Part shown: positions 36,485 through 58,152 of the stretch, piece by piece
How the letters are laid out: each line of letters opens with the position of its first letter
How positions within the stretch are numbered: the stretch's first letter is position 1
Origin: Lachnospiraceae bacterium NE2001
GTDB lineage: Bacteria > Bacillota > Clostridia > Lachnospirales > Lachnospiraceae
Length of the DNA: 63,610 nt
NCBI GenBank assembly: GCA_900110635.1
Contig: FOEK01000022.1
Coordinates: 1-63,610 of the forward strand
Direction: 5' to 3'
The notes under the pieces: model-generated
The model's database searches: none
Seen by the model: the letters and a program-made list of their open reading frames with translations, nothing else
Told to the model about the DNA's origin: nothing
Position numbers and translations under genes: made by a program

Positions 36485-37498
36485 TCACAACTCAAACATG
36501 GATTTTTTAGGAAAACAATTATCTAAAGCTTTATTTATCTCATTACAAATGATAGGAAAATCCTCGTCATTTTCCACATTATCATTAATACAAATCATTT
36601 TATTCTTTTTCTTTCTGATACAATTAATAACATCCAACTGATCGCCTTTATAGTACATATCAAAAAATCTACTAAAATTTCTATTTCTAACCTCAAAATT
36701 CCCTTCACATATCTGCCAATATCTCATACACCAATGAGCTAAACTAAACTCTCCCCTAAACTTGTTACCACAAGTTTCTTTTAGTTCCTCTTCAGCTAAC
36801 ATCCATACATCATAAAAGGTCTTTTTATTATAGGAATACGCAGTATGCATTTCATTAAATCCTGTAATCCCCTTATATGGAATCATGCTTATTGTTTTGA
36901 TTATTTCTTTACCATTTTTTAGGTTAAAAAACTTTTTCTTACAATTACGCATAACCTCAGCTTTAGTAAATCTTTTAGCTACTAACCTCGTGTTCATTAC
37001 AGAAATCCCATAAACGCTTTTACCATCCTTAGAATATACAGCTTGAATAGGTGAAAATGCCACAGTATCACAAGGCTTATTACCAATAAAAAAATCTTCA
37101 GGTTCAGTATTTTTAATGATAAACATATCGTCATTAATATATACAAAATTTTCTGATAAACCCGGAATCTTATGAAGAACCAATTCGACAGCACAATTAT
37201 TAAATGTCGGCAGAAAACAATCATCCAGTAAATCATTTTGATTAATAATTGAGATTTTGTCACAACTCTCATCTAACCAGTCAGGGCATTGTCCGGGAGT
37301 CACAATATATACATGATTAAACCAAGGAGCATTTTCTTCTATACCTCTGAGAACATACTTTAAATTATTCCAATTTCTGTATCTTCTCTTTCTATTATCG
37401 TCACCATCTTTAGAAACCTTATATTTTTCTCGTAAATCAAGCCATTCCTTATCATCGCCATCAACCCATGTAATGACAAAATCTATGGGATTACTCAT
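36485..37498 (-). CDS. Stealth-family capsular polysaccharide phosphotransferase
   Basis: A 337-residue protein starting PIDFVITWVDGDDKEW, the Stealth CR1 signature. CR2 follows: RYRNWNNLKYVLRGIEENAPWFNHVYIVTPGQ, then FNNCAVELVLHKIPGLSENFVYINDDMFI. CR3 (NEMHTAYSYNKKTFYDVW) and a CR4-like end are present. Stealth proteins are hexose-1-phosphate transferases that make phosphodiester-linked capsules (as in Neisseria) and are related to eukaryotic GlcNAc-1-phosphotransferase. Its presence predicts a phosphodiester linkage in the module 2 polymer. The ribosome site GAGGT is seven bases from the ATG. Confidence 0.9.
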   Translation of the reverse strand: MSNPIDFVITWVDGDDKEWLDLREKYKVSKDGDDNRKRRYRNWNNLKYVLRGIEENAPWFNHVYIVTPGQCPDWLDESCDKISIINQNDLLDDCFLPTFNNCAVELVLHKIPGLSENFVYINDDMFIIKNTEPEDFFIGNKPCDTVAFSPIQAVYSKDGKSVYGISVMNTRLVAKRFTKAEVMRNCKKKFFNLKNGKEIIKTISMIPYKGITGFNEMHTAYSYNKKTFYDVWMLAEEELKETCGNKFRGEFSLAHWCMRYWQICEGNFEVRNRNFSRFFDMYYKGDQLDVINCIRKKKNKMICINDNVENDEDFPIICNEINKALDNCFPKKSMFEL

Positions 37499-39498: not shown

Positions 39499-40229
39499 TT
39501 TTACTCTCCTTTATTCATTTGATTTTTTATATTGAAAATAAAACTCACCTTTACGTTAGTTCTATAATATATCATTCTGCGAGTTTATTATTCTGACGAT
39601 ACCTTTGAAAAATCATACTTAACCTAAGAAATCATAACAACATAATACTTTATATGTCATTATGATTTCTTTAGGTTTTCTATAATTACTTAAATAAAAA
39701 GCATCTTTGGGTTCTCCGCTTCAATAATACCAATATAACCTTTCACCTACCCTTTTATCCAATAATATCTTTACTTTTATTCGAGACAAAAAAAGCTAAA
39801 CTTTACTCAAAAAAATCAATACGTAATATACTATTCTTTATCATCAAATCAACAAACATTGCAAACAATCGACGATATTATATGATATATATACTATTTC
39901 GTCAAATTATCAAAAGTAGTCACTGATGTATAATCAAAAAAATAATATATCTATTTTGACCAAAGCAGGCATTTTCCAAACAGGCAGGAATCCAACTTCC
40001 AAAGAAGCCCTACTCAAAATCCTTATCAATACGAAAATTAAGAAAACAGAATTCTTATACGCCAACACTCTTCTGATAAAAATGATATCCATCGTAAGAT
40101 TTCTTCTGTTTATCAAGACTCTCATAACCCGATAATAAAAGGTCGCCACCAAACGCTCATCCCAGCATCAAATTTGCCTTCATTTCTTGTTCCGTTGTGA
40201 TACAAATACCAACCTTGTCCTTCATCTCC
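39499..40229. other. Gene-free 731-nt junction between modules 1 and 2
   Basis: AT-rich DNA with no convincing gene; short ORFs of about 70 codons at 39926-40152 lie on opposite strands and look like chance. It contains the inverted repeat at 39621-39677 and must hold the promoter for gmd, but I could not find boxes with good spacing. Right after the stop of the 1106-residue gene, 34 sense codons continue in frame (40229 down to about 40125) with a protein-like GWYLYHNGTRNEGKFDAG run. Confidence 0.5.
39621..39677. repeat. Long AT-rich inverted repeat, terminator-like
   Basis: Arms AACCTAAGAAATCATAA and TTATGATTTCTTTAGGTT pair with one bulged base around a 22-nt loop. It stands between the end of module 1 and the start of module 2, and might stop read-through from the former on the minus strand, though no strong T tract follows. 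Confidence 0.55.
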
Positions 40230-43200
40230 TTAGATAGTGATTATAACAGCTTCCTCAGGTTTTAATCTTGAAATATGATTATTGCATACAATACGCACCC
40301 GATAACTTCCTGAAGGCACCGCCTTACGTGGTAGTCTAGTCTTAAATCCCGCGTATTCAATATGCTCATCATTAGGAAATGTCTCAACTACATCCTTTCG
40401 CTCTACATGACGAGTTGTTAGTATATAAGCTTTCCTACTGTGATCAACTTCAACCTCTAAAACACTATCCTGATTTTCAACCTCCGTCTCAAAATTATCT
40501 TTCTTTGTTTCTACCACAGGTTCCAAGAGAATCTCTGGATCCAGATACTGGTTATCCTCCTGCCCGAACCTTATGGCCCAGCCCTCCATGTAAAGGCACC
40601 AATCATGAACCACATTATCAACGCCAAAACGAATGGTTTCATCCACCTCATACTCGGGGATCTTATCAAGAGCTTCGGCTTTATAGTTTGCATCATAATC
40701 AAGGTTGTATGAGAAGTCTGACGCCACCTGACTAAGATTTTGGCTATAAAACGGATCTTTCTTCTTGAACTTTGGATGTGAATCGTAGAGCTTATCTTGC
40801 TCGGACATAAGACGTTCAAACTTTGCATCATCCATAGTATCATCACCACGACTTATAGACTCGTGATGATAAAGGACTGCATCATTCCTGATGACATTAA
40901 ATAACTTCTGTTCAGTAAGTCTATAGCAAAGATCTATATCGTTATACGCTACCGCAAGGCTTTCATCAAAGCCATTTATACGTTCAAAACGTGTTTTCTT
41001 TACTAATAAGCAAGCAGCTGTGACAGCGGATACGTCAAAATCCAGACGATTACGGTTGAAATAGTAGCTAGCACTATCATCCTGCTTAGCAAGATAATGT
41101 ACAGGCCCGCTCTCAACGCTGATAACACCGTCGTGCTGAATCAGCGTGGTATCTGGATAGAGCAGCTTAGCGCCCACCGCTCCCACATGTGTGAGTTCTG
41201 CCTGGCCTAGCATACGTTCCAGCCATTCTGGCTCAATTATCTCGATATCGTCATTTAAGAAAAGAAGATATTCTCCCGATGATGACTTAGCACCGATGTT
41301 GCACATAAATGAGAAGTTAAAGTCTCGAGGTGCATAAAGATACTTAGTGTTAATCTCCTCTTTCTTGACAGTATTTAATAATTCCTGATATGTTGCACGA
41401 TTTTCTTCGTTACTACCGTTGTCGACAACGATAACCTCGTAATTTCTATAATTGGTCTTCTTCACAAGCGAATCAAGACACTGTTTTAATATCTCTGGGT
41501 TGTCCTTAGATGGAATGATAATAGACACAAGCGGATTATCTAGCGGACGATAGTTAATTCTATATTGGAATATATCGTCTATCCACTCAACATCAGCAGT
41601 AAGACCACGTCTCTCAAGAGCAGCCTGCTTACATTTAAGAGTTGCTTCCTTGACATAGTCCTTTGCCTCTGGATTAAGGGCAGTTGAGCCCTCCCTCTCA
41701 CGCCAGTGATATAGAATCTTCGGGATATGGGCTATCTTATCAGTTTTCTCAGCCACACGAAGAGTGAGGTCGTAATCCTGACATCCGTCATACTCAGACC
41801 TAAGTCCATCTAATTCCTTCACCAGTGAAGTTCTGTACACCCCAAGATGTGAAGTGTACATATATGACATCAGGGTATCAGGGGACCAGTCAGGCTTAAA
41901 GAATGCGCTATGTCTCTTGGTTCCATCATCGTCTATCTTATCTTCGTCACTATAAATGAAATCCAGATATATATCACGATTTAGTTCCTTCACAACCTCG
42001 TAAAGAGCAAATGGTGCAAGGGTATCATCACAATCCATAAATGCTATGTATTCACCTGTTGCAGCCTCAATACCAGTATTAGTACAAGCAGATATCCTGC
42101 CATTTTCTTCACGGTATATAACCTTGATATTTGTACCCTTTCGAGAATACTTCTTAAGGGTCTTCTGAACACTCTCCATATCAGATGCATCGTCAACAAG
42201 AATCAGTTCCCAGTTGGCGTAGCTCTGGTTACGTACTGATTCAATGGCTGGAATGAGGTACTTGTCTGGCATGTTATAAACAGGCATCACAACAGAAATA
42301 AGCGGAGTATAGTCGAACAAAGCATTATAATCATAGGTAGACTCCACCTTTTCAATCCACGCCTGGTAGTCTTTACCAGTCTGTGCAGCAAGTTCCTTCT
42401 CACGTGCGTTATCACGCGCCTCTTTCTCTGCTATACGTCTCGCTTCTTCTCTGGCTTCTTTTCTACGGATAAAGCTTCTCTTAATTGCTCCAGGTCCATA
42501 GCGGAACGCAGAATATATACCATACGCTGGATTTGTAAAGCATCGTCTTATATGAGCTATCTTCGCTTCAAGTGCCTGACTATGCTGCTCTAACCCAGCA
42601 ATGTACTCGTCCTTTTGAGATATTGCACTTTCCTGATAATACGTTATCTTGTTCAGTTCCTCTATCTCATCCTTCAAATCCTGTTCTCGTATATCGTGAG
42701 CTGCTATGATATTGGCAATATGAGTATCTTTTTCTTCAATTATCTTCTTATTGTAATCCTCATTTCTCTTTAGATTGCTTATTACATCGCTAACATTTTG
42801 AATTTTCTTCTCATAGCGGGACAGATAGCTATATCGCCGATTTTCTCCGTGCACTTTGTCCTGAAAAATATTATCCATTCTCTCATATATATCGAGATTA
42901 TCCCCAACCAGCCCGAACTTTGCAAGAAACTCTGTTATCTCAATTCTCGGGCTTAACTCAGCCGCCACATCATTATAAAGATAAACGAGAATTCTATATT
43001 TTAAGAAATTAATTGGAACAGGGAAGTCCAGCACCCACTCATAGTCAAGGCATACCCAGCCCATATTTGTAATGATAAAGTTGCTGAGAATAGAGTCAAG
43101 ATTGCACAGACTTACTGCAGAACCTCCAGAAGGATCACACTCGGGAAAATACTCCCTAAACTCATCTGTTATCTCAAAATCGCATAAATACTCTTCCTTT

Positions 43201-43550
43201 ACATCCAGCACTTTGTCCAGAAGCTTGTGTACCTTCTCAACGATAATGTCAATATCATCCCCAACAAAATCAATTCCATCAGTAACGGACTTTCCCTTTA
43301 GAAACACAAATGCCAGTCCATCACGAAAGCTGGATGAAGGAATAACTTTGATGCTCTTATAATAACCCTTCAGTTTGTCGAAGTTCTCCCGAATTGTCAA
43401 AATGTGTGTCTTCGCCTTATCACAAGAAGGCAGCTTGAGAACCATTTTCTCACTGCCATCTTTTTCAGTGTCCTTTAAGACAATCTTCGTCTCCACCTGA
43501 TATTCTGGTTTTCTTAAAGTATTGTACTTAACGTATAACAACTGGGACAT
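40230..43550 (-). CDS. Kinase-like domain, coiled coil and two GT2 domains in one protein
   Basis: The 1106-residue protein has four parts. Residues 1-245 resemble aminoglycoside/LPS-type kinases: VLK (Lys 39), a hinge-like FVFLKGKSVTDG, the catalytic loop N150-L-D152 with N157 (CNLDSILSNFII), and D169-Y-E171 as the metal Asp. Residues 250-335 are a charged coiled coil, followed by a basic segment (360-385). GT2 domain 1 starts near 417 (ISVVMPVYNMPDKYLI, DDASD, FMDCDDT) and GT2 domain 2 near 680 (VSIIIPSKDNPEIL, VVDNGS, FLNDDIE). The C-terminal 100 residues are beta-rich. With the methyltransferase and Wzt beside it, it may elongate and cap a glycan. Function is inferred. Confidence 0.78.
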   Translation of the reverse strand: MSQLLYVKYNTLRKPEYQVETKIVLKDTEKDGSEKMVLKLPSCDKAKTHILTIRENFDKLKGYYKSIKVIPSSSFRDGLAFVFLKGKSVTDGIDFVGDDIDIIVEKVHKLLDKVLDVKEEYLCDFEITDEFREYFPECDPSGGSAVSLCNLDSILSNFIITNMGWVCLDYEWVLDFPVPINFLKYRILVYLYNDVAAELSPRIEITEFLAKFGLVGDNLDIYERMDNIFQDKVHGENRRYSYLSRYEKKIQNVSDVISNLKRNEDYNKKIIEEKDTHIANIIAAHDIREQDLKDEIEELNKITYYQESAISQKDEYIAGLEQHSQALEAKIAHIRRCFTNPAYGIYSAFRYGPGAIKRSFIRRKEAREEARRIAEKEARDNAREKELAAQTGKDYQAWIEKVESTYDYNALFDYTPLISVVMPVYNMPDKYLIPAIESVRNQSYANWELILVDDASDMESVQKTLKKYSRKGTNIKVIYREENGRISACTNTGIEAATGEYIAFMDCDDTLAPFALYEVVKELNRDIYLDFIYSDEDKIDDDGTKRHSAFFKPDWSPDTLMSYMYTSHLGVYRTSLVKELDGLRSEYDGCQDYDLTLRVAEKTDKIAHIPKILYHWREREGSTALNPEAKDYVKEATLKCKQAALERRGLTADVEWIDDIFQYRINYRPLDNPLVSIIIPSKDNPEILKQCLDSLVKKTNYRNYEVIVVDNGSNEENRATYQELLNTVKKEEINTKYLYAPRDFNFSFMCNIGAKSSSGEYLLFLNDDIEIIEPEWLERMLGQAELTHVGAVGAKLLYPDTTLIQHDGVISVESGPVHYLAKQDDSASYYFNRNRLDFDVSAVTAACLLVKKTRFERINGFDESLAVAYNDIDLCYRLTEQKLFNVIRNDAVLYHHESISRGDDTMDDAKFERLMSEQDKLYDSHPKFKKKDPFYSQNLSQVASDFSYNLDYDANYKAEALDKIPEYEVDETIRFGVDNVVHDWCLYMEGWAIRFGQEDNQYLDPEILLEPVVETKKDNFETEVENQDSVLEVEVDHSRKAYILTTRHVERKDVVETFPNDEHIEYAGFKTRLPRKAVPSGSYRVRIVCNNHISRLKPEEAVIITI

Positions 43551-43609
43551 ACTTCATCTCCCTTACAAGATTCTTTGATTACACTTATAGTGAAACTAAC
43601 AATATTTCT

Positions 43610-44467
43610 TTATCTACGACTCCCCTTCTTTTCAAAGATTAGAATGTATGAATTGGCATACTCGTCAAAACGTCCATCACGTATCATTTCACTAAAAGTC
43701 TTAGGTTCATCAAAGAGAAGTGTCTTTTCCTTGTCAAATGTTGGTGCTGCCGTCCTGATAGCTCCAGCACTAGGCAGGTTCTGATCCGAATACACCTCCA
43801 ATGGGAAGATGTAGTCCGGAATCGGATAAAACGTTGCTATAAGCTTCAACTTCTTCTCCTGGGAAAGTTCAATAATCCGCTCCTTGGTGGCAATATCGGG
43901 CCTCGCGTCAGTGGTCCAGTTCTTAAGGCCGTATTTATTATCAGTAATGATTATTAGCTGCCCCTTGGATGCGAGGAACCCCGCTGCAAGTTCCAGTTTT
44001 TCAGGAGTAAACTCACCAACAATCGTAACATAATCGTACTTAGCGCCCTTTCTCATAAGAGCATTCTTCGTCTTCTTAATAGCAGACTTCAGAATATCCG
44101 TATTCTCTGAATTCACGTCAGGAGCCTGATCTGGCTTTGCGATATACTCTGGAGAGGACACAACCGTAAGGTTCTTCTCTGAGGCGTTTCTCGCACGATT
44201 AACAATGCATTTATCCTCATCTTGGTCAAATGCCACCACTTCCGCTACTTTTTCGCAAAAAAGCCCTGTAAGAGCTCCACACTCTGCTCCTATCTCCAAG
44301 AGCCTGGCTGACGGTTCGAACTCATACCAATCCAAAACATTTCGCCTGATTCGAGACAAATGATACAGTTCATCATACGCTCCCTCTTCATTGCCTCGTC
44401 CTGCCAGATACTCCTCCAGATCCGCCTCACTATTCACAATTTCCAATAACTTCTCGTAACTCTTCAT
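43610..44467 (-). CDS. SAM-dependent methyltransferase
   Basis: A 285-residue class I methyltransferase. The SAM-binding motif is LLEIGAECGALTGLFCEKVAEVVAFDQDEDKC (about residues 55-86), followed by a YDYVTIVGEF motif near 145 in the usual post-motif position. It lies between the ABC transporter ATPase gene and the kinase-like/GT2 gene. In ABC-exported O antigens a methyl or phospho-methyl cap at the non-reducing end stops elongation, and this gene is a candidate for that job. Its acceptor cannot be seen in sequence. Confidence 0.82.
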   Translation of the reverse strand: MKSYEKLLEIVNSEADLEEYLAGRGNEEGAYDELYHLSRIRRNVLDWYEFEPSARLLEIGAECGALTGLFCEKVAEVVAFDQDEDKCIVNRARNASEKNLTVVSSPEYIAKPDQAPDVNSENTDILKSAIKKTKNALMRKGAKYDYVTIVGEFTPEKLELAAGFLASKGQLIIITDNKYGLKNWTTDARPDIATKERIIELSQEKKLKLIATFYPIPDYIFPLEVYSDQNLPSAGAIRTAAPTFDKEKTLLFDEPKTFSEMIRDGRFDEYANSYILIFEKKGSRR

Positions 44468-44485
44468 AACAATTCTCTCAAATGG

Positions 44486-45910
44486 TTATAATACCTTCTC
44501 GATGGTTACCTTGGAGTTCATATCGTAATAACCAACGGTGTTCTTGTCGGACACAACAGATATATTCAGCACGTCATAAAGTCTGTCGTGAGCCACCAGT
44601 TCACCGTCTACAAAGCTGGTACAGCTCATAGATAGCAGGTACTCGCCGCCCTGAAGGTTCATCTCCTGAGTAAAGGACGCTATATAGGTCTCGCCCTTTT
44701 TTGCCAGCCCAACGCTGGCCTTTTCATACATAGTATTTGTACCTGTAATATCCTGACCTTTTATAGTTTTAAATGTATATGTAAAGATGGGATCATCCAC
44801 ATCTTCTTTAAACTCTACCTTGGATCTGATGGTAAATGTTGAACCCTTGATGATGGTTGTTGTGATGTTCCCATCCTCGTCGAAAATACCGAAATCAATG
44901 AGTTTTGCTGCGCCATCACCGTATTCGTCAAGATTAGGATTAATATCCAGGTGATCACTCCATCTTTTAGATGAGTCGTTACCAATGGTTCTCTGGTCAT
45001 TAAAAGTCTCTCTAGACTTATCATCGACCTTTCCTTCCGCTAATTCATCAGACTTCCCATCGTTCTGACCTTCCGCCATTTCTCCAGACTTGTCGTCACT
45101 CTGACTTTCAGATGCAAAGGCCTCCAGATGCTCCTTACGACGTTTCTCCTGTTCCTCCATTTCGGCAACAGTCATTCCCGTCATTATCTTCTTATATTTG
45201 TTGATAATATCTATTGGGACACCCTCAGCGACATTACGTCCGTGATCCATAAGAACTGCCCTGTCACAGTATCTTTCAATGCTGGAAAGGTCATGACTAA
45301 CGAACAGGATGGTCTTGCCCTGTTTCTTGAACTCCTCAAACTTCTTGAAGCATTTCAGCTGGAAGAATACATCACCTACTGAAAGCGCTTCGTCGACTAT
45401 TAGTATCTCTGGGTCGATATTAATTGCCACAGCAAATGCCAGTCTGACAAACATACCCGAGGAGTATGTCTTTACAGGCTGATGCACAAAGTCACCGATA
45501 TCCGCAAATTCCAATATATCCTGCAGCTTTGCGTCAATCTCCTCCTTAGTGAATCCGATCATCGTGCCGTTCAGGTACACATTTTCTATACCTGTGTACT
45601 CCATATTGAAGCCTGCACCCAACTCGAGAAGAGCAGAAATACGTCCATTTATCTCCACCTCGCCAGCTGTCGGATTCAGCACTCCCGTGATGATCTTCAG
45701 GATTGTTGATTTGCCTGCACCATTGGTACCAATGATCCCCACGCACTCGCCGCGCTTCACCTCAAAACTGACGTTATGAAGAGCATAATGCTCCTTATAC
45801 CTCTGTTTCTTTGAGAGACCCAACGACTCCTTCAACCGGTCCGTAGGCTTATCGTACAGCTTGTAGAGCTTCGTCACATCTTTAATTTTTATTGCTATTT
45901 CATCACTCAT
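44486..45910 (-). CDS. wzt: Polysaccharide ABC transporter ATP-binding protein with C-terminal Wzt domain
   Basis: The 474-residue protein has an ABC ATPase domain (1-245): Walker A GTNGAGKSTIL, signature YSSGMFVRLAFA, Walker B ILIVDEALSVGDV and the switch His in LFVSHD. A flexible acidic linker (about 258-315) holds three imperfect repeats of D/S-D-x-K-S-x-E-x. The last 145 residues form a Wzt_C-like beta domain (GSTFTIRSKVEF, AHDRLYDVLNISV). In O8/O9a-type export this domain recognises the finished, capped glycan. It pairs with the permease just upstream (17 nt). Confidence 0.9.
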   Translation of the reverse strand: MSDEIAIKIKDVTKLYKLYDKPTDRLKESLGLSKKQRYKEHYALHNVSFEVKRGECVGIIGTNGAGKSTILKIITGVLNPTAGEVEINGRISALLELGAGFNMEYTGIENVYLNGTMIGFTKEEIDAKLQDILEFADIGDFVHQPVKTYSSGMFVRLAFAVAINIDPEILIVDEALSVGDVFFQLKCFKKFEEFKKQGKTILFVSHDLSSIERYCDRAVLMDHGRNVAEGVPIDIINKYKKIMTGMTVAEMEEQEKRRKEHLEAFASESQSDDKSGEMAEGQNDGKSDELAEGKVDDKSRETFNDQRTIGNDSSKRWSDHLDINPNLDEYGDGAAKLIDFGIFDEDGNITTTIIKGSTFTIRSKVEFKEDVDDPIFTYTFKTIKGQDITGTNTMYEKASVGLAKKGETYIASFTQEMNLQGGEYLLSMSCTSFVDGELVAHDRLYDVLNISVVSDKNTVGYYDMNSKVTIEKVL

Positions 45911-45927
45911 TCACAGTCTCTCTTTTG

Positions 45928-46983
45928 TTACAGAACATCTGCAAAATGTATCTTCAAACGTCGGAAAATCTTGACCCCAAGGCCAAATGCCAGCAAAGTA
46001 ATAGTCCAGAAATAAAGTGTCCAGAGCAGTGTTTCACCTTTCCAAAACCAATGATGCACCAACACGCTGTCACGGAAGCCGCTCACTATGTAGTACATAG
46101 GATTCAGCTTGAATAGCTTATGCACTGTCGGGGACAACATGGCCTCAGCATTCCACATAATAGGTGTGAGCCACACGCCAACCTGAAGTATAAATATATT
46201 GATAAACTGTCCAAGATCTCGGAAGAACACAACTATTGCAGAAGTAAGATAAGAAAGACCAAGGACAAATGTCACGCTGCACACCACATAATAAAGCATT
46301 TGCAGTGTATACAAAGTTGGCGGATACCCAAGACAGGTAGCCAGTATCAGTGCAAATGCAATAAAGAAGCAGTGTACAAATAGTGCAGATACTACCTTTA
46401 CAAAAGGCAGGATATCTATGTTGAACACTACCTTCTTTACCAGGTAGTTGTAGTCAGTCATAGCATTTGTACCGCCATTCAGCGCGTCAGAGAAGAAAAA
46501 CCAAGGAATGATACCCACTACAATAAAAAGAACAAAGGGGTAATCGCCCACATCACCTGCCCTGAAACCAACAGAAAAAACGAACCAGTAAACTGCAATG
46601 GTCACGATTGGCTGTATAAATGCCCAGATCATTCCAAGATAGCTTCCTGCGTACTTTGTCTTGAAGTCATTTTTTGCAAGATTCAGTGCAAGACGCCTGT
46701 TCTGATATATTTCCACAGGAATATCAATAAGTGAAAAGAAATGTCTCAGCACGTATACCGCTATAACATCAATGATCACGCAGATCACTATATCCATGAT
46801 CAGCGTTCTCTTTACAAAATCCGGTCCTGCAAATGCCATTCCCATAATTTGTTCTGCATCAGGTGCCATCTGCTGTTCATTCGTTAACACCAGATCTGCA
46901 TAGTCTATCTTCCAGAACACTATTAAGTTAATTAGTATTACCAGCACCACAAATAGGGCGCGTAGTATTTTCTTTTTCTTCAT
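45928..46983 (-). CDS. wzm: Polysaccharide ABC transporter permease with N-terminal extension
   Basis: The 351-residue permease moves lipid-linked glycan across the membrane with Wzt. The ABC-2 core starts near residue 97 (RRLALNLAKNDFKTKYAGSYLGMIWAFIQP), the classic start of Wzm/TagG proteins, which are usually 260-280 residues. Ahead of it is an extra 90-residue part with two predicted helices (about 8-24 and 62-80) and a loop between them. Conserved WLTPIMWNAEAM and LNPMYYIVSGFRDSV lie near the C-terminus. A GGGGACGG repeat separates it from the rfbC gene upstream. Confidence 0.9.
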   Translation of the reverse strand: MKKKKILRALFVVLVILINLIVFWKIDYADLVLTNEQQMAPDAEQIMGMAFAGPDFVKRTLIMDIVICVIIDVIAVYVLRHFFSLIDIPVEIYQNRRLALNLAKNDFKTKYAGSYLGMIWAFIQPIVTIAVYWFVFSVGFRAGDVGDYPFVLFIVVGIIPWFFFSDALNGGTNAMTDYNYLVKKVVFNIDILPFVKVVSALFVHCFFIAFALILATCLGYPPTLYTLQMLYYVVCSVTFVLGLSYLTSAIVVFFRDLGQFINIFILQVGVWLTPIMWNAEAMLSPTVHKLFKLNPMYYIVSGFRDSVLVHHWFWKGETLLWTLYFWTITLLAFGLGVKIFRRLKIHFADVL

Positions 46984-47038: not shown

Positions 47039-47626
47039 TTATAGTCCGCGTTCTGCTTTGTAGGCAGCAATGCCGTCCCACTTCTGGTCTTTATCTGAGA
47101 GTGTGAGGTCTGCCTCGGTCATCCCCTCTGGCATTGGCCAGTCAACACCAATTTCTGGATCCTTCCAGAGAAGTCCACCCTCATCGTTTGGGTGATAGAA
47201 ATCGGTACATTTGTAGCAGAATTCAGCATAATCAGAAAGAACGATAAATCCGTGGGCAAAGTTCTTAGGAATCATAAACTGCTTCTTATTCTCGGCTGAG
47301 AGACGTACTCCATACCATTTGCCAAATGTTGCGCTGCCCTCACGAAGATCTACAGCAACATCAAACACCTCACCGCTGATTACACGTACAAGCTTGTCCT
47401 GTGGAAACTCCTTCTGGAAATGAAGTCCTCTAAGGACGCCCTTCTTGGATGCGCTCTGGTTGTCCTGCACAAAGGTGTAGTCCATACCTGCTGCCTTCAT
47501 ATCATTCTCATTATATGTCTCCACAAAGTAGCCTCTGTCATCACCGAATACTGTTGGTGTAATGACCTTCAGGCCCTCAATTACTACTCCATCTACAGTA
47601 CAATCTTCAACTGTTATCTTTCCCAT
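47039..47626 (-). CDS. rfbC: dTDP-4-dehydrorhamnose 3,5-epimerase
   Basis: A 195-residue cupin epimerase, third step of dTDP-L-rhamnose synthesis. Signatures: GVVIEGLKVITPTVFGDDRGYFVETYNE, GVLRGLHFQ, and FAHGFIVLSDYAEFCYKCTDFYHPNDEGG. The length matches the family (about 185-195). rfbA, rfbB and rfbD are not in the window, so they must be elsewhere, or this enzyme may work on the CDP-linked keto-sugar made by the nearby rfbF/G/H genes. The sequence itself favours the dTDP-rhamnose type. Confidence 0.9.
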   Translation of the reverse strand: MGKITVEDCTVDGVVIEGLKVITPTVFGDDRGYFVETYNENDMKAAGMDYTFVQDNQSASKKGVLRGLHFQKEFPQDKLVRVISGEVFDVAVDLREGSATFGKWYGVRLSAENKKQFMIPKNFAHGFIVLSDYAEFCYKCTDFYHPNDEGGLLWKDPEIGVDWPMPEGMTEADLTLSDKDQKWDGIAAYKAERGL

Positions 47627-50154: not shown

Positions 50155-50237
50155 AAGACAGGGGACGGTTCTCTGTCTTCGTTTTTTTATATCTATATGT
50201 TATTAATTATCCAAGACAGAGAACCGTCCCCTGTCTT
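50155..50237. repeat. Inverted pair of GGGGACGG repeats
   Basis: Two full 25-nt copies (50155-50179 and 50213-50237) face each other across a 33-nt AT-rich spacer, so the pair can form one long hairpin or two short ones. The TAA stop of the 1095-residue gene is made by the last bases of the second copy. This paired layout is that of bipartite REP elements. Confidence 0.85.
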
Positions 50238-53200
50238 AGTCAGCCATACCCGCTATGATTGCCATAGCCATCTCATATTCTTCAGGAGTTGCGCCTAATA
50301 CGTTCTCGGCGAATTCCTCTTTGGTCATGCTTATCTCTTCCAGATAATGATAGTAGTAATTCTGTACATCCAGAAGTGTTGCAGAGTTTACCTTCAACTG
50401 ACTTGCTGTGGCACTTGTCACTATACCGTAAGCATTTCCACCACTTGCAGAAGTAGTTACAGTACTGTTACTCTCATAGGATCCGGCTGATATATCACTC
50501 AGCTTTTCAGCATTTTCCTGAATATATGCACTCAGCTTCTGCTTTTCCAGCTCGCGACTAAAATTCTCAGTCACCTCTGCCACTGTATCGTCATATACCT
50601 GCTGTCTGGTCTCATCATCAATCACATATTCAAGGCTGCAGGCTATATAAAGAGGCTGAAGCTTAACTGTAACAGTCTGACCAGAATATATTTCAAGCTC
50701 AGGATAGCCATCAGGAACCGTTATCTCTATCTCACGGACCTCACCAGACTGCATTTCCAGAAGTGCCTCATCAACCTCAGGAAGCAGTTCGCCAACTCCC
50801 ACCTTTACGACAAACTCCTCTTCATCGTGCATGGTTCTGATCTGCTTTCCATTTGAATCATACAACTCTACAACCAGATGAACGCTGTCGAATGGTTCTA
50901 TATCAATACGTCCTTCCTCATTAATCTCTGAAACTCTGAGGAAATCTGCCATACGATAGTTATACAGCTTCTCGATTCGCGAGTTCAGCTCCGCCTCAGC
51001 TGTGGCATCATCTATCATAGTTGTCACCGTACTGCTGGCAGAACTAACCTGTGACTTAGCCTTATCGGAATCCTCGCTGGCATCTGTAGTACCTGCAGCT
51101 GCATCCTCAATCTCCTCGTCATTTGCCGTGAGCGATTTCATTTCACTGATCACGGTACCCATATCGAGTCCTTCAATGTAACCGTCACGCTGTACCATAG
51201 GATAGTAGTTGATAGTACCGCGGTAAGCCGATGCTTCCTGCTCCTCACCAAGATAGTAGTACTCGCTGATTGAAGCAAGATGCCGCTCCTCGCTGACACC
51301 CAGCTCCTCAAAATATGGAACAAAACACATATAAGCACGTGTTGTCATATACTGCTTGTTAAGACGCTTTGAGTAAGGAAGATAATCGTACGGGAACCAT
51401 GTGTTCGTCGCAGAAACCGCACAAATATTCATTTCCTCCCAGCCCGTCATATTATAGTCAAAATAGTCACGTTTCTTCTTCTCGTCGAACCAGCCAACGC
51501 GGAAATAAGCACCATTTCCATCAAACTGCACGCCTGACTCAACACCGGTTTCCTTAACAGGGAAATAAAGTGCTGTGTCGCCATTATAATCTATATCATC
51601 CAGAAGCTTATCAAATGCCTTATCCAGCCAGGCGTACTGGTAATTTGTAACCAGTCCATCACCAAAGTAGGCAATCTGTTCACTCTCAAAATTCATGGTC
51701 TTATCACCGATTGGAACCTGTTTGTAAAAACCCTTTGTCACAGGATCTATGGTGACAAAACTCTCAATAGCCAGCAGCACTGCCAGGATACCGCCAAAGA
51801 AAACATAGGACGAACGGCTCACGATATCGACGCCCATTACTATAGCTGTGATAAATGCCAGACCAACCGCAAAGAAGGTGTTGTACCTCTCCAGCGGAGA
51901 AACGTGGAAGAACAGACCAAAGGCCATAAAGAAGGTTAGTGCACCGCATATTCCTCCAAACACAAGCCATCCAGAACCCTTCAGGTTTTTCCATTTTCGT
52001 TCTATGATAATATTCTTAAATGCTACTAGAAAATATACGAATATGAGCCAGGCAAAGTTGCTACCCAGATACTGTTTGATCTTAAGATAAATATATGGCT
52101 TCTCAATGCTGAGAGTTACCGGAGCTGCTCCAGATGCCGATACCTTATCAGCCCAGTTAGCCCCCTTCAGTATCATAGCAACCACAAAGATAATACCAAC
52201 AGTAAGCGCAACCCAGAAATCTGAGGTATGAAGAGACAGTCTGATACGAGAACCAAAGGATACCCTGCTCTTTTTCATAGCACCATCCGCTGTCATATCC
52301 TGAGCTATCTCATCCACAGCAGCCTGAGCAGAAGTTCCTTCCTGGTTTTTTCTGATTCTTGCCTGTTCAAAGGCCTTTTCAGCCGCTTCTTCCCTTGCCT
52401 TAAGCTGTTCCGTGCCCTCATCAAGTATATCGAAATCCAGCATAGGGTCTCTGTATTTCTTATCAGCAAAGGTCTTAAGCTCTCTTGCTCTTGTGAGATT
52501 AACAAAGATAAATCTGCATAAAATCCTGATTCCGTAATATCCCAGCACAACCAGCGCAGCATTTTCCTTGGTAAAGCACATCATCACAAGGCAGAATACC
52601 TCCAGAATATGCCACTCTCTTGCCTGGAAATAAAGAGCAAAGATAAAGAACAGAACCAGATAATAGTCAGGTGTACAATAGGTTGTAAGTCCAAGGAATA
52701 TAGGAACATTTCCTATAACCATTGCTGCAACAGCAGATTTTGAACGAGTAAAATCAAACTCGATTCTAAAGATTCTGTACAGCGCCATAACAGCCAGCAC
52801 TGAAAAAAGTATTTGCCACAGTGTTATACCAATAACGCTTCTCGGGCTGAGAAACAGCGGAATTGCTATAAAGCTGGTGAAACCATAATTCAGGTGATAT
52901 GCTACCGCGAAGTTATACAAAAAATTAGGAAGTGTAAAGGTGTAGTCCTGCACTGAGGTTCCCACAGTATAGAAATACTCACCTGCATCCCATCTTTGAA
53001 ATGTACCAAGCATCGGCAGTCTTATAAGCAGACTCACTATCGTTAGCGTTGTGTACACAACCCAGTTCTTGGTCTTATTTCTCTTCTTCTGGAGCTTTTC
53101 TGCCTGACGGCGGTGTTTCTCCTGCTCTCTTTCAAAATTAAACTTTTCTTCTTTTTCCTGCTCCTCTACCAGATCCTGACCAGAGACAATCTTCTCAAGC

Positions 53201-53523
53201 TCTTCCTCATCAAGTTCGTCATCGTCTATATATTCATCTTCTTCATCATCATTTTCAGACTTATTCTTTACAATAGACATATTCTTTGAATCAGCTAATT
53301 GCTTGGAATGTCTCTTCATCAGCCACGTACAGATGGTAGCAATGAAAAGCCCCACCCATATCATAAGAGATATCAGTGGGAAAGCCATATCGACCAGTTT
53401 TTCTGGCTTATGCATATTAGCATTTCCTATAATAGCTGCCAGATGAAATACTACTGGGTATGCTGCAACGAACATCAGCTGAGCGACCACGCTATGAATT
53501 TTTTCAATTCTGCTTTTCTTCAT
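50236..53523 (-). CDS. Large GT-C-like membrane protein with a trigger-factor/FKBP-like C-terminal domain
   Basis: The 1095-residue protein has two helices at the N-terminus, an acidic then charged coiled region (about 80-150), and about ten further helices (150-600) with the loop RWDAGEYFYTVG, a GT-C-like acidic first loop. A long outside domain follows. Near residues 870-960 is a clear FKBP/trigger-factor PPIase-like segment: VGELLPEVDEALLEMQSGEVREIEITVPDGYPELEIYSGQTVTVKLQPLYI (motif order G-E-L-x-P-x-x-D-E-A-L, M-x-x-G-E, V-P-D-x-Y, G-x-x-V). Then comes a helical part resembling trigger factor's C-domain (DDETRQQVYDDTVAEVTENFSRELEKQKL). The fusion of a glycosyltransferase-like membrane protein to a folding-factor domain is unusual. 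Confidence 0.75.
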   Translation of the reverse strand: MKKSRIEKIHSVVAQLMFVAAYPVVFHLAAIIGNANMHKPEKLVDMAFPLISLMIWVGLFIATICTWLMKRHSKQLADSKNMSIVKNKSENDDEEDEYIDDDELDEEELEKIVSGQDLVEEQEKEEKFNFEREQEKHRRQAEKLQKKRNKTKNWVVYTTLTIVSLLIRLPMLGTFQRWDAGEYFYTVGTSVQDYTFTLPNFLYNFAVAYHLNYGFTSFIAIPLFLSPRSVIGITLWQILFSVLAVMALYRIFRIEFDFTRSKSAVAAMVIGNVPIFLGLTTYCTPDYYLVLFFIFALYFQAREWHILEVFCLVMMCFTKENAALVVLGYYGIRILCRFIFVNLTRARELKTFADKKYRDPMLDFDILDEGTEQLKAREEAAEKAFEQARIRKNQEGTSAQAAVDEIAQDMTADGAMKKSRVSFGSRIRLSLHTSDFWVALTVGIIFVVAMILKGANWADKVSASGAAPVTLSIEKPYIYLKIKQYLGSNFAWLIFVYFLVAFKNIIIERKWKNLKGSGWLVFGGICGALTFFMAFGLFFHVSPLERYNTFFAVGLAFITAIVMGVDIVSRSSYVFFGGILAVLLAIESFVTIDPVTKGFYKQVPIGDKTMNFESEQIAYFGDGLVTNYQYAWLDKAFDKLLDDIDYNGDTALYFPVKETGVESGVQFDGNGAYFRVGWFDEKKKRDYFDYNMTGWEEMNICAVSATNTWFPYDYLPYSKRLNKQYMTTRAYMCFVPYFEELGVSEERHLASISEYYYLGEEQEASAYRGTINYYPMVQRDGYIEGLDMGTVISEMKSLTANDEEIEDAAAGTTDASEDSDKAKSQVSSASSTVTTMIDDATAEAELNSRIEKLYNYRMADFLRVSEINEEGRIDIEPFDSVHLVVELYDSNGKQIRTMHDEEEFVVKVGVGELLPEVDEALLEMQSGEVREIEITVPDGYPELEIYSGQTVTVKLQPLYIACSLEYVIDDETRQQVYDDTVAEVTENFSRELEKQKLSAYIQENAEKLSDISAGSYESNSTVTTSASGGNAYGIVTSATASQLKVNSATLLDVQNYYYHYLEEISMTKEEFAENVLGATPEEYEMAMAIIAGMAD

Positions 53524-53547: not shown

Positions 53548-54531
53548 CTATTTATCGAGGTTAATCCGGTTAGTCCTTGTGGTATCATCATCATTACCAA
53601 AATTGATCCGCTCCTCTTCAACTACCAGAGGCCTGTTCATTATCCTCTTATTCATGCTCATTATGTATTCACCCATAAAGCCGATGGAAAAGAGCTGCAC
53701 CGCGCCCATAAACGACATAATGATAATAAGCGGCGCCATACCAGCCTCAAAACCATACCAGTTAGTTAGCTTCAAGACCAGATACACGATACCTACAACG
53801 ATACTTGCAAAACCGATAAATGCACCAAGAAATGTGCATAATCTAAGACCAATCTTGGTATATGACGTAATAGAAAGCATTGCAGCATCATACAATGTAT
53901 AAAAGTTGTTATGAGTCTTTCCAGCCCTTCTTTTTGGCTGTTCATACTCAATCTCCTTACGCTGAAATCCCAGCTCTGCTACAATTCCACGAAGAAACGG
54001 AGTCGGATCATTTAGATTACGAAGAACCTCTATGAACTCTCTGTCATAAAGTCCTGAACCAGTAAAATGTTGAATCTGCTCAACATCTGAGAACTTCTTT
54101 ACAAAGCTGTAGTACATAGAACGAAGTGCGTACATCAGCTTGTTCTCCTTGCTGGCAGTCTTAATTCCGATAACTATCTTGTAGCCCTCCTCCCAGGCAG
54201 CAAGATACTTCGGTATCATTTCAACGGGATCCTGAAAATCACATACCATGGAGATTACACAGTCACCGCTTGTCTGGAGCATTCCATGATAAGGAGAATT
54301 AAACTGACCAAAATTCTTTGCGTTAAATATAGCCTTAACATGCTTATTTCTCGAGCATATCTCCCTGAGGAGTGGACGGGTGTTATCCGACGAATCATTG
54401 TCAATAAAGAGAAGCTCGTAGTCATACTGGGGAAGGTTCTTCTCGAACATCTCCTTTATGGCGTTGGACATGGGCACCACATTTTCCTCTTCGTTATAGC
54501 AAGGTATTAATACACTAACTTTCTTTTTCAT
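53548..54531 (-). CDS. GtrB-like polyprenyl-phosphate glycosyltransferase
   Basis: A 327-residue GT2 enzyme: VSVLIPCYNEEENVVPMSNAI, LLFIDNDSSDNT, the metal site VCDFQDPVEMIP near residue 100, and two C-terminal helices (about 235-258 and 270-292). The length and layout match GtrB/bactoprenol glucosyltransferases and PglF-like enzymes. It probably makes undecaprenyl-phosphate-glucose (or similar) for the GT-C-like neighbours. I start it at 54531, where GGAG stands six bases upstream, instead of the ATG at 54561. GtrA is far away (5558). Confidence 0.87.
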   Translation of the reverse strand: MKKKVSVLIPCYNEEENVVPMSNAIKEMFEKNLPQYDYELLFIDNDSSDNTRPLLREICSRNKHVKAIFNAKNFGQFNSPYHGMLQTSGDCVISMVCDFQDPVEMIPKYLAAWEEGYKIVIGIKTASKENKLMYALRSMYYSFVKKFSDVEQIQHFTGSGLYDREFIEVLRNLNDPTPFLRGIVAELGFQRKEIEYEQPKRRAGKTHNNFYTLYDAAMLSITSYTKIGLRLCTFLGAFIGFASIVVGIVYLVLKLTNWYGFEAGMAPLIIIMSFMGAVQLFSIGFMGEYIMSMNKRIMNRPLVVEEERINFGNDDDTTRTNRINLDK

Positions 54532-54580
54532 ATCATTCTCCATATTACAGGAATATATCATAGAGACTTAACATCCCTAT

Positions 54581-55552
54581 TTATTTATGGGTGCGAGCCC
54601 ATTCGATAGTACGACGGATACCATCCTCAAAGGTTGTTTCCGGCTTGTAGCCAGTATCTGCCACAAGCTCCGTTGTATCTGCCACAAGATACATTACCTG
54701 GTCAGGATTGTAATCTCTCTCACCAATTCCAACATCCAGACTAGGATCGATGGCGTCTCTTATAGCAAATATATAATCCTTAAGAAGTCTCTTCTCACCA
54801 GAACCTACGGTGTAAACCTTCTGGTCAATACCCTTCTCAACAATCTCCACAAATGCCTTGGCAGTATCCTCAGCATAGATATAATCCCACACCTGCTCAG
54901 CCGGGGTGAACTGCATCCTCTCGCCGCGAAGCATAGCACGGATTGCGGACATTACCATAGTATAATCATTGTCGCCCTCTCCATAGCAGCTTAGGATTCT
55001 GGCCCAGTTGAACTTCATTCCAAGATGTCTGCACTCGAGACCAGCAAGCCTGCAGGCAGCCAGCTTCGCAATACCATATCCCGTGATAGGATCCTTTGGA
55101 AGCTCGTCCGACAGACTACCTGTCACTATTCCAAACTCAGCCTGTGAGCCCGCTCCAATAAAGGATTTACATCCTGCCTCATAGGCAAGATGTACAGCGT
55201 CAAGTGTTGCCTTTATATTCTCAGCCTGCTTCGAAGCCTCATTTCTACCAGTACCAAATGTATAACCCCATCCAAAGTGGAAGAATGCGTCGTGCTCCCA
55301 TCCCAGTTTGTCTCTAAGACTTGGAAGCTCGTAGAGATTACACTCTACGATTCGCATTTTACCAACCTCCAAGGTCTTATCATCACCCAGGAGCACCTGA
55401 GCGCCGGCCTCTTCCTCGGCCCACTCCAGATTCCTCAGTTTTTCCGACATAGGACGGACAATAGCAGTTACATTTATTCCTCTCTGGAGCAGTTCCTTCG
55501 CAACATGGGAACCAATCATTCCACTTGCCCCAGTAATTATTGCATCTCTCAT
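54581..55552 (-). CDS. NAD(P)-dependent 4-reductase of the CDP-3,6-dideoxyhexose pathway (RfbJ-like)
   Basis: A 323-residue extended SDR: IITGASGMIGSHVAKELLQRG binds the cofactor, GYGIAKLAACRL holds the Tyr-x3-Lys and YAEDTAKAFVEIVEKG is the C-terminal side. It lies directly after rfbH, rfbG and rfbF, which make CDP-4-keto-3,6-dideoxy-D-glucose; a reductase such as RfbJ (abequose) or RfbS (paratose) would complete the sugar. Which stereoisomer is made cannot be read. It is one gene away from the GtrB-like gene. Confidence 0.75.
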   Translation of the reverse strand: MRDAIITGASGMIGSHVAKELLQRGINVTAIVRPMSEKLRNLEWAEEEAGAQVLLGDDKTLEVGKMRIVECNLYELPSLRDKLGWEHDAFFHFGWGYTFGTGRNEASKQAENIKATLDAVHLAYEAGCKSFIGAGSQAEFGIVTGSLSDELPKDPITGYGIAKLAACRLAGLECRHLGMKFNWARILSCYGEGDNDYTMVMSAIRAMLRGERMQFTPAEQVWDYIYAEDTAKAFVEIVEKGIDQKVYTVGSGEKRLLKDYIFAIRDAIDPSLDVGIGERDYNPDQVMYLVADTTELVADTGYKPETTFEDGIRRTIEWARTHK

Positions 55553-55570
55553 ATCTTTCCTCTCAAAGTT

Positions 55571-55627
55571 AAGGACAGGGGACGGTTCTCTGTCTTATTT
55601 TCAAGACAGAGAACCGTCCCCTGTCTT
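55571..55627. repeat. Inverted pair of GGGGACGG repeats
   Basis: Two copies (55571-55596 and 55603-55627) face each other with a 6-nt gap, making a near-perfect hairpin of about 57 nt between the RfbJ-like gene and rfbH. The copies differ at the outer edge (AGGACAG instead of AAGACAG). In the minus-strand transcript this is a strong stem inside the operon. Confidence 0.85.
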
Positions 55628-55631
55628 GTTA

Positions 55632-56978
55632 TTATTGTACTGCTTCATGGATTACGCGTGACATGTAGGCAAGCTTTTCTTCGGTCATACCAGGATATAC
55701 GCCAATCCAGAAGGAATTGTTCATGATATAGTTTGTAACATCGAGACTTCCTGGAACTCTGTATTTGTCAGTTCCGCGGATTGAATCAAAGCAAGGATGA
55801 AGTGTAAGGTTACCACTGAAAAGAAGTCTTGTCTGAACATTGTGATCCTCGATATAACGAGTTATATCATTTCTCTTAAGACCAGACTCTGGCTTTACGC
55901 TGATCAGGAAACCAAACCATGATGGTTCTGAATTCTCAGTAGGCTCAGGAAGAATCAGCTTATCCTCAAGATCTGAAAGAGCCTGACGGAGATATGCCCA
56001 GTTCTCTTTTCTTCTTTCAATAAATGTTGGGAACTTCTTCAGCTGCTCAACTCCAACTGCAGCCTGCATATCAGTCACCTTAAGGTTGTAGCCAAGATGG
56101 CTGTATACGTACTTGTGATCATAGCCAGCAGGAAGCTCTCCAAACTGACCATCAAATCTATGACCACAGAGATTGTCGTGTCCTGATGGACATACACAGT
56201 CACGTCCCCAGTCTCTAAGGCTCTTAACAATACGGTTCAGCAGCGGATCATCTGTGTAAACGCATCCGCCCTCACCCATGGTCATATGATGTGGTGGATA
56301 AAATGAGCTGGTTCCAATATCTCCCCAGGTACCAGAGAATTTTGTAACACCATCAATTGTGTACTTGGTTCCCAGAGCATCACAGTTATCCTCAACCAGC
56401 CAGAGATTATATTTATCACAAAATGCTTTAACAGCCTTTAGGTCAAATGGATTACCCAGCGTATGTGCTATCATTACGGCCTTGGTCTTATCAGACACAG
56501 CTGCCTCGAGAAGCGCTGGATCTATATTGTATTCAGGAAGCTTCACATCCACGAACACAGGAACAGCACCGTACTGAAGAATTGGTGCAACCGTTGTAGG
56601 GAAGCCTGCAGCAACTGTAATAACCTCATCACCAGGAAGCACCTGTCTCTCTCCAAGAAGTGGTGATGTGAGAGTCATAAATGCCAGAAGATTTGCTGAG
56701 GACCCACTGTTTACAAGATTCGCAAACTTTACTCCTATCCATTCTGCAAAGTTTCTCTCGAACTCATCAGAAAATCTTCCTGTTGTAAGCCAGAAATCCA
56801 GAGTAGCATCAGTGAGAGATAACATTTCCTTTTCATCATATACACGACTAGCGTATGAGATACGGTCTCCCTCCTTAAACTCCTTCACCTGCTCCGGCTT
56901 TTTAAACTGTTCATAATACTCAGCTACCAGCCCCTTAATCTCCTCACGGGCTTCAGCCTCGCTATTCCATTTTCCCAT
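55632..56978 (-). CDS. rfbH: CDP-4-keto-6-deoxy-D-glucose 3-dehydrase
   Basis: This 448-residue PMP and [2Fe-2S] enzyme removes the C3 hydroxyl (E1 of the 3,6-dideoxyhexose pathway). The Lys normal in aminotransferase-fold enzymes is replaced by His: GTSSFYPPHHMTMGEGGCV, the mark of this subfamily. Iron-sulfur ligands follow in RDWGRDCVCPSGHDNLCGHRFDG. The N-terminus has ISYASRVYDEKEMLSLTDATLDFWLTTG. Length is typical (about 435-450). It needs an electron donor such as RfbI (E3), which is not in the window. The stop codon abuts a repeat pair. Confidence 0.93.
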   Translation of the reverse strand: MGKWNSEAEAREEIKGLVAEYYEQFKKPEQVKEFKEGDRISYASRVYDEKEMLSLTDATLDFWLTTGRFSDEFERNFAEWIGVKFANLVNSGSSANLLAFMTLTSPLLGERQVLPGDEVITVAAGFPTTVAPILQYGAVPVFVDVKLPEYNIDPALLEAAVSDKTKAVMIAHTLGNPFDLKAVKAFCDKYNLWLVEDNCDALGTKYTIDGVTKFSGTWGDIGTSSFYPPHHMTMGEGGCVYTDDPLLNRIVKSLRDWGRDCVCPSGHDNLCGHRFDGQFGELPAGYDHKYVYSHLGYNLKVTDMQAAVGVEQLKKFPTFIERRKENWAYLRQALSDLEDKLILPEPTENSEPSWFGFLISVKPESGLKRNDITRYIEDHNVQTRLLFSGNLTLHPCFDSIRGTDKYRVPGSLDVTNYIMNNSFWIGVYPGMTEEKLAYMSRVIHEAVQ

Positions 56979-57003
56979 CTTATTCTCCTATAAATCTATA
57001 ATA

Positions 57004-58095: not shown

Positions 58096-58121
58096 TCTCT
58101 ATTCCTCATCTATCATAGATT

Positions 58122-58150
58122 GTTGTCAACTGTTACGTCCCCGTGACAAC
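58122..58150. repeat. GGGGACG-core repeat variant, GTTGTCA arms
   Basis: GTTGTCA and TGACAAC pair around CTGTTACGTCCCCG-like sequence (core GGGGACG on the minus strand). It lies two bases from the rfbF stop codon at 58153, again at a gene 3' end. Confidence 0.6.
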
Positions 58151-58152
58151 TT

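Follow-up and report, generated by a model that had tools for sequence, protein, structure and literature searches.

Are the chains of an ABC-exported surface glycan measured and capped by a terminator protein in a Gram-positive bacterium? The question is raised by contig FOEK01000022.1 of Lachnospiraceae bacterium NE2001 (assembly GCA_900110635.1), of which positions 1 to 63,610 were analyzed (the whole stretch is called the window below). Here, wzm, wzt, a gene for an S-adenosylmethionine (SAM) methyltransferase (MT), and a gene for an 1106-amino acid (aa) protein form one tight run that is read on the minus strand, toward lower coordinates, with intergenic gaps of 17, 18, and 59 bp. An earlier interpretation based on the letters of the DNA (the sequence-only reading) had described wzm, wzt with a Wzt_C domain, the methyltransferase, and a protein with kinase-like domain, coiled coil, and two GT2 domains in a row, and had proposed a counterpart of the chain terminator WbdD of Escherichia coli. 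The open reading frames (ORFs) and Pfam matches agree with this gene content. Our analysis points, with a probability of about 0.75, to an ABC-exporter-dependent glycan pathway in which the 1106-aa protein would be polymerase, ruler, and terminator in one chain. Judged by sequence comparison, the locus is best regarded as a split version, in a Gram-positive host, of the terminator type represented by ORF6 of Klebsiella pneumoniae O7.

Predicted kinase fold and coiled coil of the 1106-aa protein

The genes and domains of the run are as follows, with E values of the profile matches.

45928..46983, minus strand: wzm, permease of the glycan ABC exporter, 351 aa (Pfam ABC2_membrane, 1.5e-13)
44486..45910, minus strand: wzt, ATPase of the exporter, 474 aa, whose C-terminal domain is the presumed reader of the cap (ABC_tran, 1.6e-25; Wzt_C, 1.2e-41)
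44519..44929, minus strand: Wzt_C domain; solved entry 2r5o, which we take to be the O9a Wzt domain, is matched by the final 159 aa of Wzt (8.2e-8)
43610..44467, minus strand: MT, SAM-methyltransferase partner in a shortened form, 285 aa; encoded by its own gene in the window and joined to the kinase in many relatives
40230..43550, minus strand: protein with kinase, coiled coil, and two GT2 domains, 1106 aa, the putative terminator, ruler, and polymerase
42801..43550, minus strand: APH/protein-kinase-like domain, residues 1-250 (AlphaFold, Foldseek)
42534..42794, minus strand: helix 253-339, candidate coiled-coil ruler (full-length model and hydrophobic period)
41823..42296, minus strand: first GT2 domain, residues 419-576 (Glycos_transf_2)
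40878..41528, minus strand: second GT2 domain, residues 675-891 (Glyco_tranf_2_3)
40236..40688, minus strand: C-terminal beta-rich domain, residues 955-1105 (full-length model)

Residues 1-250, which the sequence-only reading had called kinase-like, were not matched by any kinase model of Pfam or NCBIfam. An AlphaFold model, built from an alignment of 33 sequences from which the relatives L059 and L064 were excluded, nevertheless predicts an APH-type kinase fold with high confidence (pLDDT 94.2, pTM 0.89). Foldseek comparison with the PDB ranked MphE best (E 2.8e-5, probability 1.00), together with Rio2, MphH, MphB, and APH, and gave 55 matches at E <=0.001. In a viral fold library, the model matched general protein kinases and a choline kinase, nothing more specific. 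The domain is thus predicted to share its fold with the macrolide and aminoglycoside phosphotransferases (MphE, MphB, APH(3')), to which its identity is 10-15%, and it has the Lys, the catalytic Asp, the Asn, and the Mg-binding Asp expected of the APH/protein-kinase-like fold. Those phosphotransferases modify drugs and are not known to have MT, coil, or GT2 partners. In the source genome the kinase occurs once; a second match (E 0.56) has four stops.

The residues expected at the active site are located at the following positions.

43434..43436, minus strand: K39, expected ATP-site lysine
43080..43103, minus strand: catalytic loop N150-x-D152-x4-N157
43035..43046, minus strand: D169-Y-E-W172, at the expected place of DFG, conserved in the kinase alignments

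Among the 33 aligned sequences, R13, T21, K39, G86, N150, D152, N157, D169, E171, W172, R186, and F229 are invariant, so that six of the seven kinase residues named earlier are strictly kept and the seventh, Y170, nearly so. Conservation is similar over 91 distinct domains (K39 in 90, N150 in 86, D152 in 90, N157 in 91, D169 in 90, Y170 in 87, E171 in 91). A pseudokinase or a regulatory protein kinase might be suspected from the loop, which reads N-x-D instead of the usual H-x-D, and from the glycine-rich loop, which was not identified. However, K39, D152, N157, and D169 are jointly kept in 88 of the 91 domains (the exceptions are L059 and two Gram-negative rows), and the fusion to the MT and the linkage to the exporter described below also argue against this explanation, which we consider very improbable.

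The coiled coil, placed earlier at residues 250-335, appeared in the full-length model (pLDDT 83.8) as a single helix at 253-339, corresponding to approximately 13 nm at 0.15 nm per residue and predicted with moderate confidence (block pLDDT 49-68). It starts directly after the kinase, with no intervening domain in this model. Residues 250-340 contain no proline and one glycine and show a hydrophobic period of 3.5 residues, which was reached by none of 2000 shuffles. When the longest proline-free part of the linker was analyzed in 21 relatives, the hydrophobic period was found in 19 (p <=0.019). The stretch between the kinase and the first GT2 domain varies from 75 to 310 residues among the relatives listed. 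The 103 kinase ORFs contain 37 copies of a short motif, K/R-D/E-x-H/Y-I-x-N/G, which is absent from 74 of these ORFs; in the other ORFs of these loci (344,433 residues), it was found twice. By eye, near repeats of KxxHIxNL were seen inside the coil of two relatives (L069, 6989-10234; L105, 7001-10435); such repeats could allow the length of the ruler to change through unequal crossing-over.

At the other end of the protein, residues 955-1105 have no Pfam match of their own. A similar ending was noticed by eye in a GT2-GT2 protein of another locus (L093, 3960-6068).

Relatives, exporter linkage, and known terminators

Relatives were collected in two ways. A search with the kinase domain alone gave matches in 35 of the 99 related genomes, including the source genome, and 35 regions were fetched from 32 of the matched genomes, excluding the source genome (G000) and two with short matches (G004, G056). 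In addition, 68 named loci, which overlap with the related-genome set, came from one scan of species genomes with a single short pattern around DYEW, which sets no bound on the extent of the family. Their hosts are Lachnospiraceae, other Clostridia (Enterocloster, Clostridium porci, Roseburia bins), and, for three loci, the archaeon Methanosphaera. Two of the latter (L131, L133) encode an archaeal MT-kinase of 588 aa. In Lachnospiraceae bacterium AC2031 (L066), the kinase domain has 81% identity to that of the window.

The order wzm-wzt-MT-kinase, which the sequence-only reading had suggested looking for in other Clostridia, recurs in many relatives, with wzm first. The architectures comprise MT and kinase as two genes, MT-kinase proteins of approximately 500-680 aa, kinase-coil-GT2-GT2 proteins, MT-kinase-GT2 proteins of approximately 1200-1400 aa, and kinases of approximately 310 aa without GT2. 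Of the 91 distinct kinase domains, 51 are fused to an MT, 34 have one encoded separately within the fetched locus, and for 6 no MT was seen. In a quick tree built from these domains, at least 8 changes between fused and split forms are needed, 5 of them forced by well-supported branches (fused group), and GT2 fusion needs 8. Because the two were fused repeatedly, there is good reason to think that they act jointly.

Linkage to the exporter was counted on six-frame segments, by which three loci (L046, L048, L087) were scored as lacking an MT though an MT part is visible there. Upstream sequence of 2.6 kb or more was available for 57 of the 68 named loci; of these, 55 had the MT fused or upstream and 49 had Wzt_C upstream. 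The corresponding numbers for the related-genome loci were 24/29 and 25/29. Six loci (L086, L088, L091, L093, L096, L097) have an MT-kinase gene following a GT2-GT2 gene in a neighborhood without wzm/wzt or Wzt_C, and in five of these six genomes Wzt_C is found elsewhere (in one as pieces only). ORFs of approximately 240 aa that match the Wzt ATPase profile in L093-type loci appear to belong to a different type of ABC transporter, judged by eye on the L093 sequences.

When the 99 genomes were searched separately for the two domains, 35 contained the kinase, 36 Wzt_C, 34 both, and 62 neither (Fisher 5.6e-23, kinship ignored). The kinase was alone in G077 and Wzt_C was alone in G022 and G073; in the source genome, Wzt_C exceeded the cut-off once. 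The MT-kinase fusions and the presence of Wzt_C in 34 of 35 kinase genomes suggest that the MT, kinase, coil, polymerase, and Wzt_C function together as one set.

Which known terminator does this set resemble? WbdD of E. coli O9a/O8 has the same list of parts, namely a kinase, a methyltransferase, a coiled-coil ruler, and a Wzt_C exporter (PMC3482155), and this functional parallel argues for a true relative of WbdD with a kinase of the same family. As a yardstick we used the gene of E. coli HS, which is recorded as a SAM methyltransferase and was identified from its position between wzt and wbdA. This protein was not matched by the kinase profile in a hidden Markov model (HMM) search with filters off up to E 100, nor in hhalign (probability 0.5%); WbdD was also absent from the matches among PDB sequences (E up to 5) and from the 50 listed of 1066 Foldseek matches. 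The MT profile gave a weak stretch around motif I only (HMM 0.093; hhalign probability 57%). Kinship of the two kinases, for which no homology was detectable, was rejected on the HMM, hhalign, and PDB sequence searches, and membership of the same kinase family is highly improbable. The proposed WbdD counterpart thus stands as a functional parallel with the parts divided differently and falls as a claim of kinship. The division also differs in that the polymerase WbdA is a separate protein, whereas the two GT2 domains of the window share the chain of the putative terminator.

A second comparison is WsaE of the Geobacillus stearothermophilus S-layer glycan, a Gram-positive methyl terminator acting by O-2 methylation of rhamnose (PMC2943079). 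Set beside the window by its description, it shares the Gram-positive host, a methyltransferase tied to two glycosyltransferases, and a cluster with wzm/wzt (PMC2943079). In contrast, no kinase is described for WsaE in the available part of that report, whereas in the window the MT has its own gene and the GT2 chain includes a predicted kinase fold.

The closest parallel is ORF6 of K. pneumoniae O7, a protein of 1414 aa with methyltransferase, kinase, carbohydrate-binding module (CBM), coiled coil, and two GT2 domains (PMC11231755). Its kinase is a 223-aa unannotated domain closest to the kinase AmiN; ORF6 phosphorylates the terminal rhamnose at position 3 and then methylates the phosphate, as proven in 2024, and the D441A exchange abolished phosphorylation and left exported polymer undetectable (PMC11231755). 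Orthologs are reported from alpha- and gammaproteobacteria and cyanobacteria, and Methanoculleus is named; the words Gram-positive, Firmicutes, and Clostridi are absent from the main text (PMC11231755).

The window was connected to O7 ORF6 by two plasmid-encoded proteins, found by tblastn of one fused relative against plasmids (58 further records were returned, those listed being mostly NodS). The proteins of Citrobacter braakii (649 aa) and Pseudomonas asturiensis (1457 aa) are each encoded directly after ABC permease and ATPase genes, and the ATPases have Wzt_C matches (7.9e-20 and 6.1e-16). With E values scaled to 1000 sequences, the MT family profile matched both (7.5e-44 and 3.9e-43), GT2 profiles matched the Pseudomonas protein (9.9e-95 and 3e-85), and the kinase profile matched Pseudomonas at 2.1e-6 and Citrobacter at 0.013. 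By hhalign, the kinase match was stronger for Pseudomonas (probability 91%, E 9.9e-7) than for Citrobacter (41%, 2.8e-4). The Pseudomonas protein contains Y28, Y66, G91, G93, E112, and Y158 of O7 ORF6, all with identical numbers, and its D443 is aligned with D152 of the window, two positions off D441 of O7. The window has in common with O7 ORF6 a kinase of predicted APH-like fold without database annotation (homology to the O7 type being probable, by way of the O7-like Pseudomonas protein), the MT family (by the profile match to both plasmid proteins), a coiled coil between the kinase and two C-terminal GT2 modules, and ABC export. It differs in its Gram-positive host, in having MT and kinase as separate genes instead of one polypeptide (although fused forms exist in its family), in lacking in the model the Ig-like CBM that lies between kinase and coil in O7, and in its shortened MT.

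These comparisons also bear on whether the kinase decorates sugars inside the chain, with the chain being stopped otherwise. In favor of this, enzymes with such a kinase fold can modify a wide range of acceptors. The co-occurrence with Wzt_C, the placement of the coil between kinase and polymerase, and the sequence relationship to proteins of a type proven to cap chain ends speak for the chain end instead, and internal decoration appears unlikely.

The shortened methyltransferase and the composition of the putative cap

Pfam methyltransferase models matched the MT of the window only weakly (best RrnaAD, 0.0074), while the profile of its family matched solved SAM methyltransferases (best 4.3e-10), and RsmA was also matched. 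Its sequence departs from O7 ORF6 at SAM-contact positions.

44264..44302, minus strand: MT motif I (LLEIGAECGALTG), in which O7 residue G93 is Glu

The window MT retains Y66, G91, and an acidic residue at 112 (Asp for E112), i.e., three of the six SAM-contact residues of O7; it lacks G93 and, in the alignment (in which row L043 includes its kinase part too), has no counterpart of Y28 and Y158. The window MT keeps Y35, E58, G60, and G64 along with this Asp at O7 position 112. In a table of 84 distinct MT segments, which omits three short pieces (L100 twice, L132), 36 keep Y28, Y66, G91, the acidic 112, and Y158 together (Y or F accepted). Identity to the MT of L031 is 68%. Synonymous sites are saturated in this pair (proportion of synonymous differences, pS, 0.84), so dN/dS was set aside and the nonsynonymous proportion alone was compared; its value (pN 0.21) indicates that the window MT is under constraint.

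Because the MT is shortened and lacks three of the six contact residues, the methyl half of the putative cap is uncertain. The phosphate half is the firmer one because of these odd residues and because phosphorylation alone suffices to end O9a chains (PMC3482155). Of the chain terminator proposed in the sequence-only reading, the idea of a capping kinase is thus supported by predicted fold, fusion, and co-occurrence with Wzt_C, and the methyl part is weak.

Could the cap in the window clade be phosphate alone, or carry another group, with the short MT serving as a scaffold or catalyzing a changed reaction? This would overlap with the proposed terminator function. In addition to the missing residues and the O9a precedent, four relatives (L051, L054, L055, L056) have lost SAM motif I from the MT part but retain the catalytic residues of the kinase. 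Furthermore, Wzt_C identity to the window is 68-85% in 14 short-MT loci and their duplicates, the nearest ones, and 45-58% in the remaining loci compared, with overlapping ATPase identities in the two groups. On the other side, the MT keeps the residues listed above and appears constrained, and other short-MT loci (the Enterocloster group, L053, L058, L099, L102) fall in the low Wzt_C class. In trees of Wzt_C, Wzt ATPase, and kinase (63 rows, with 38 short MTs, 21 full MTs, and 4 without motif I), 7 changes of MT state were needed in each. That the type of Wzt_C tracks the type of MT beyond descent, as the identities suggested, was therefore not upheld: the two are not separable in these trees. 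Such an altered cap in this clade is possible but doubtful.

Still more tentative is a specific version for the window clade, according to which the chain would carry an unmethylated or otherwise modified phosphate end, its own Wzt_C subtype would be the reader, and the MT would be a scaffold or have a changed reaction. If true, this would represent a kinase-only molecular ruler for Gram-positive surface glycans, in which cap chemistry and reader domain changed together.

Proposed pathway and genomic context

In the pathway that we favor, with the 1106-aa protein as terminator, the two GT2 domains would extend a lipid-linked glycan. The coiled coil, by analogy with WbdD and O7 ORF6, would space the kinase from the polymerase, allowing it to reach the non-reducing end of sufficiently long chains only. 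The kinase, with its predicted fold and conserved catalytic residues, would then phosphorylate the terminal sugar, and growth would stop. The separate MT may work with the kinase on the phosphorylated end, most simply by methylation, a step that is possibly altered or lost in the window clade. Finally, Wzt_C, clearly present as a domain, would read the capped end, and Wzm/Wzt would export the glycan.

Several observations weigh against this pathway, in addition to the contact residues missing from the window MT. The query-normalised TM-scores of the kinase model are low (0.33-0.51 among the 50 listed of 1066 Foldseek matches), and 2 of the 21 relatives analyzed for a coil (L044, L046) show no coiled-coil period. 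Exporter linkage is incomplete: the Wzm profile was found upstream in just 35 of 53 named and 23 of 27 related-genome loci with at least 4.5 kb upstream, Wzt_C was missing upstream of L078, L118, and the six loci with a GT2-GT2 gene, 8 of 57 in the named set, and it was not found in the whole genomes of L096 and L131 (Methanosphaera). The sequence link to O7 ORF6 runs through the two plasmid proteins. In the alignment, the Pseudomonas protein has His at the K39 position and the Citrobacter protein has Glu at the D169 position, and the latter lacks five of the six SAM residues at one common offset, while four match at offset 1. No chemistry was found for glycans of these Gram-positive members.

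That Gram-positive bacteria might have systems of this sort had been considered before: the report on WbdD refers to O-linked glycans that are assembled comparably in these bacteria (PMC3482155). No description of the kinase in Gram-positive bacteria was found in the literature searched, which excluded most subscription papers, and titles listed on Clostridium bolteae polysaccharide added nothing of use. New here are a large Gram-positive branch, modules that were split and fused repeatedly, and the shortened MT of the window.

The neighboring genes fall on both sides of the exporter run.

47039..47626, minus strand: rfbC-type dTDP-sugar 3,5-epimerase gene, just upstream of wzm (dTDP_sugar_isom, 1.2e-71)
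50236-53523, minus strand: membrane glycosyltransferase-like protein, 1095 aa (PMT_2, 8.8e-6)
53548-58929, minus strand: glucose-1-phosphate cytidylyltransferase, CDP-glucose 4,6-dehydratase, and RfbH (rfbF/rfbG/rfbH type), over NCBIfam cut-offs
36485-37498, minus strand: Stealth protein of a second cluster (CR1, CR2, and CR4 over cut-off)

A counterpart of the rfbC-type epimerase was present in 37 of 75 loci compared. Genes of the rfbF/rfbG/rfbH type belong to the CDP-3,6-dideoxyhexose pathway, and sequence matches suggest that 53548-58929, upstream of the exporter run, is likely such a set; it also contains an epimerase-family gene and a PgfS/ArnC-like GT2 gene, both under cut-off. An FKBP/trigger-factor-like stretch close to the C-terminus of the 1095-aa protein makes an unusual combination. 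On the other side, 731 bp (39499-40229) without a listed ORF of at least 90 aa separate the run from the second cluster, which comprises wzx (35038), a gene for a Wzy_C protein (31491), gmd, and the Stealth gene.

If the proposed pathway is correct, the measure-cap-export logic of O antigens would extend to Gram-positive gut and rumen bacteria (Enterocloster, Roseburia bins), and an unannotated domain would gain a testable function. The fused and split MT-kinase forms, together with the varied coil lengths, would constitute a natural experiment in which modules and ruler length can be compared with chain length. The same natural set would also bear on whether phosphate alone satisfies a reader domain.

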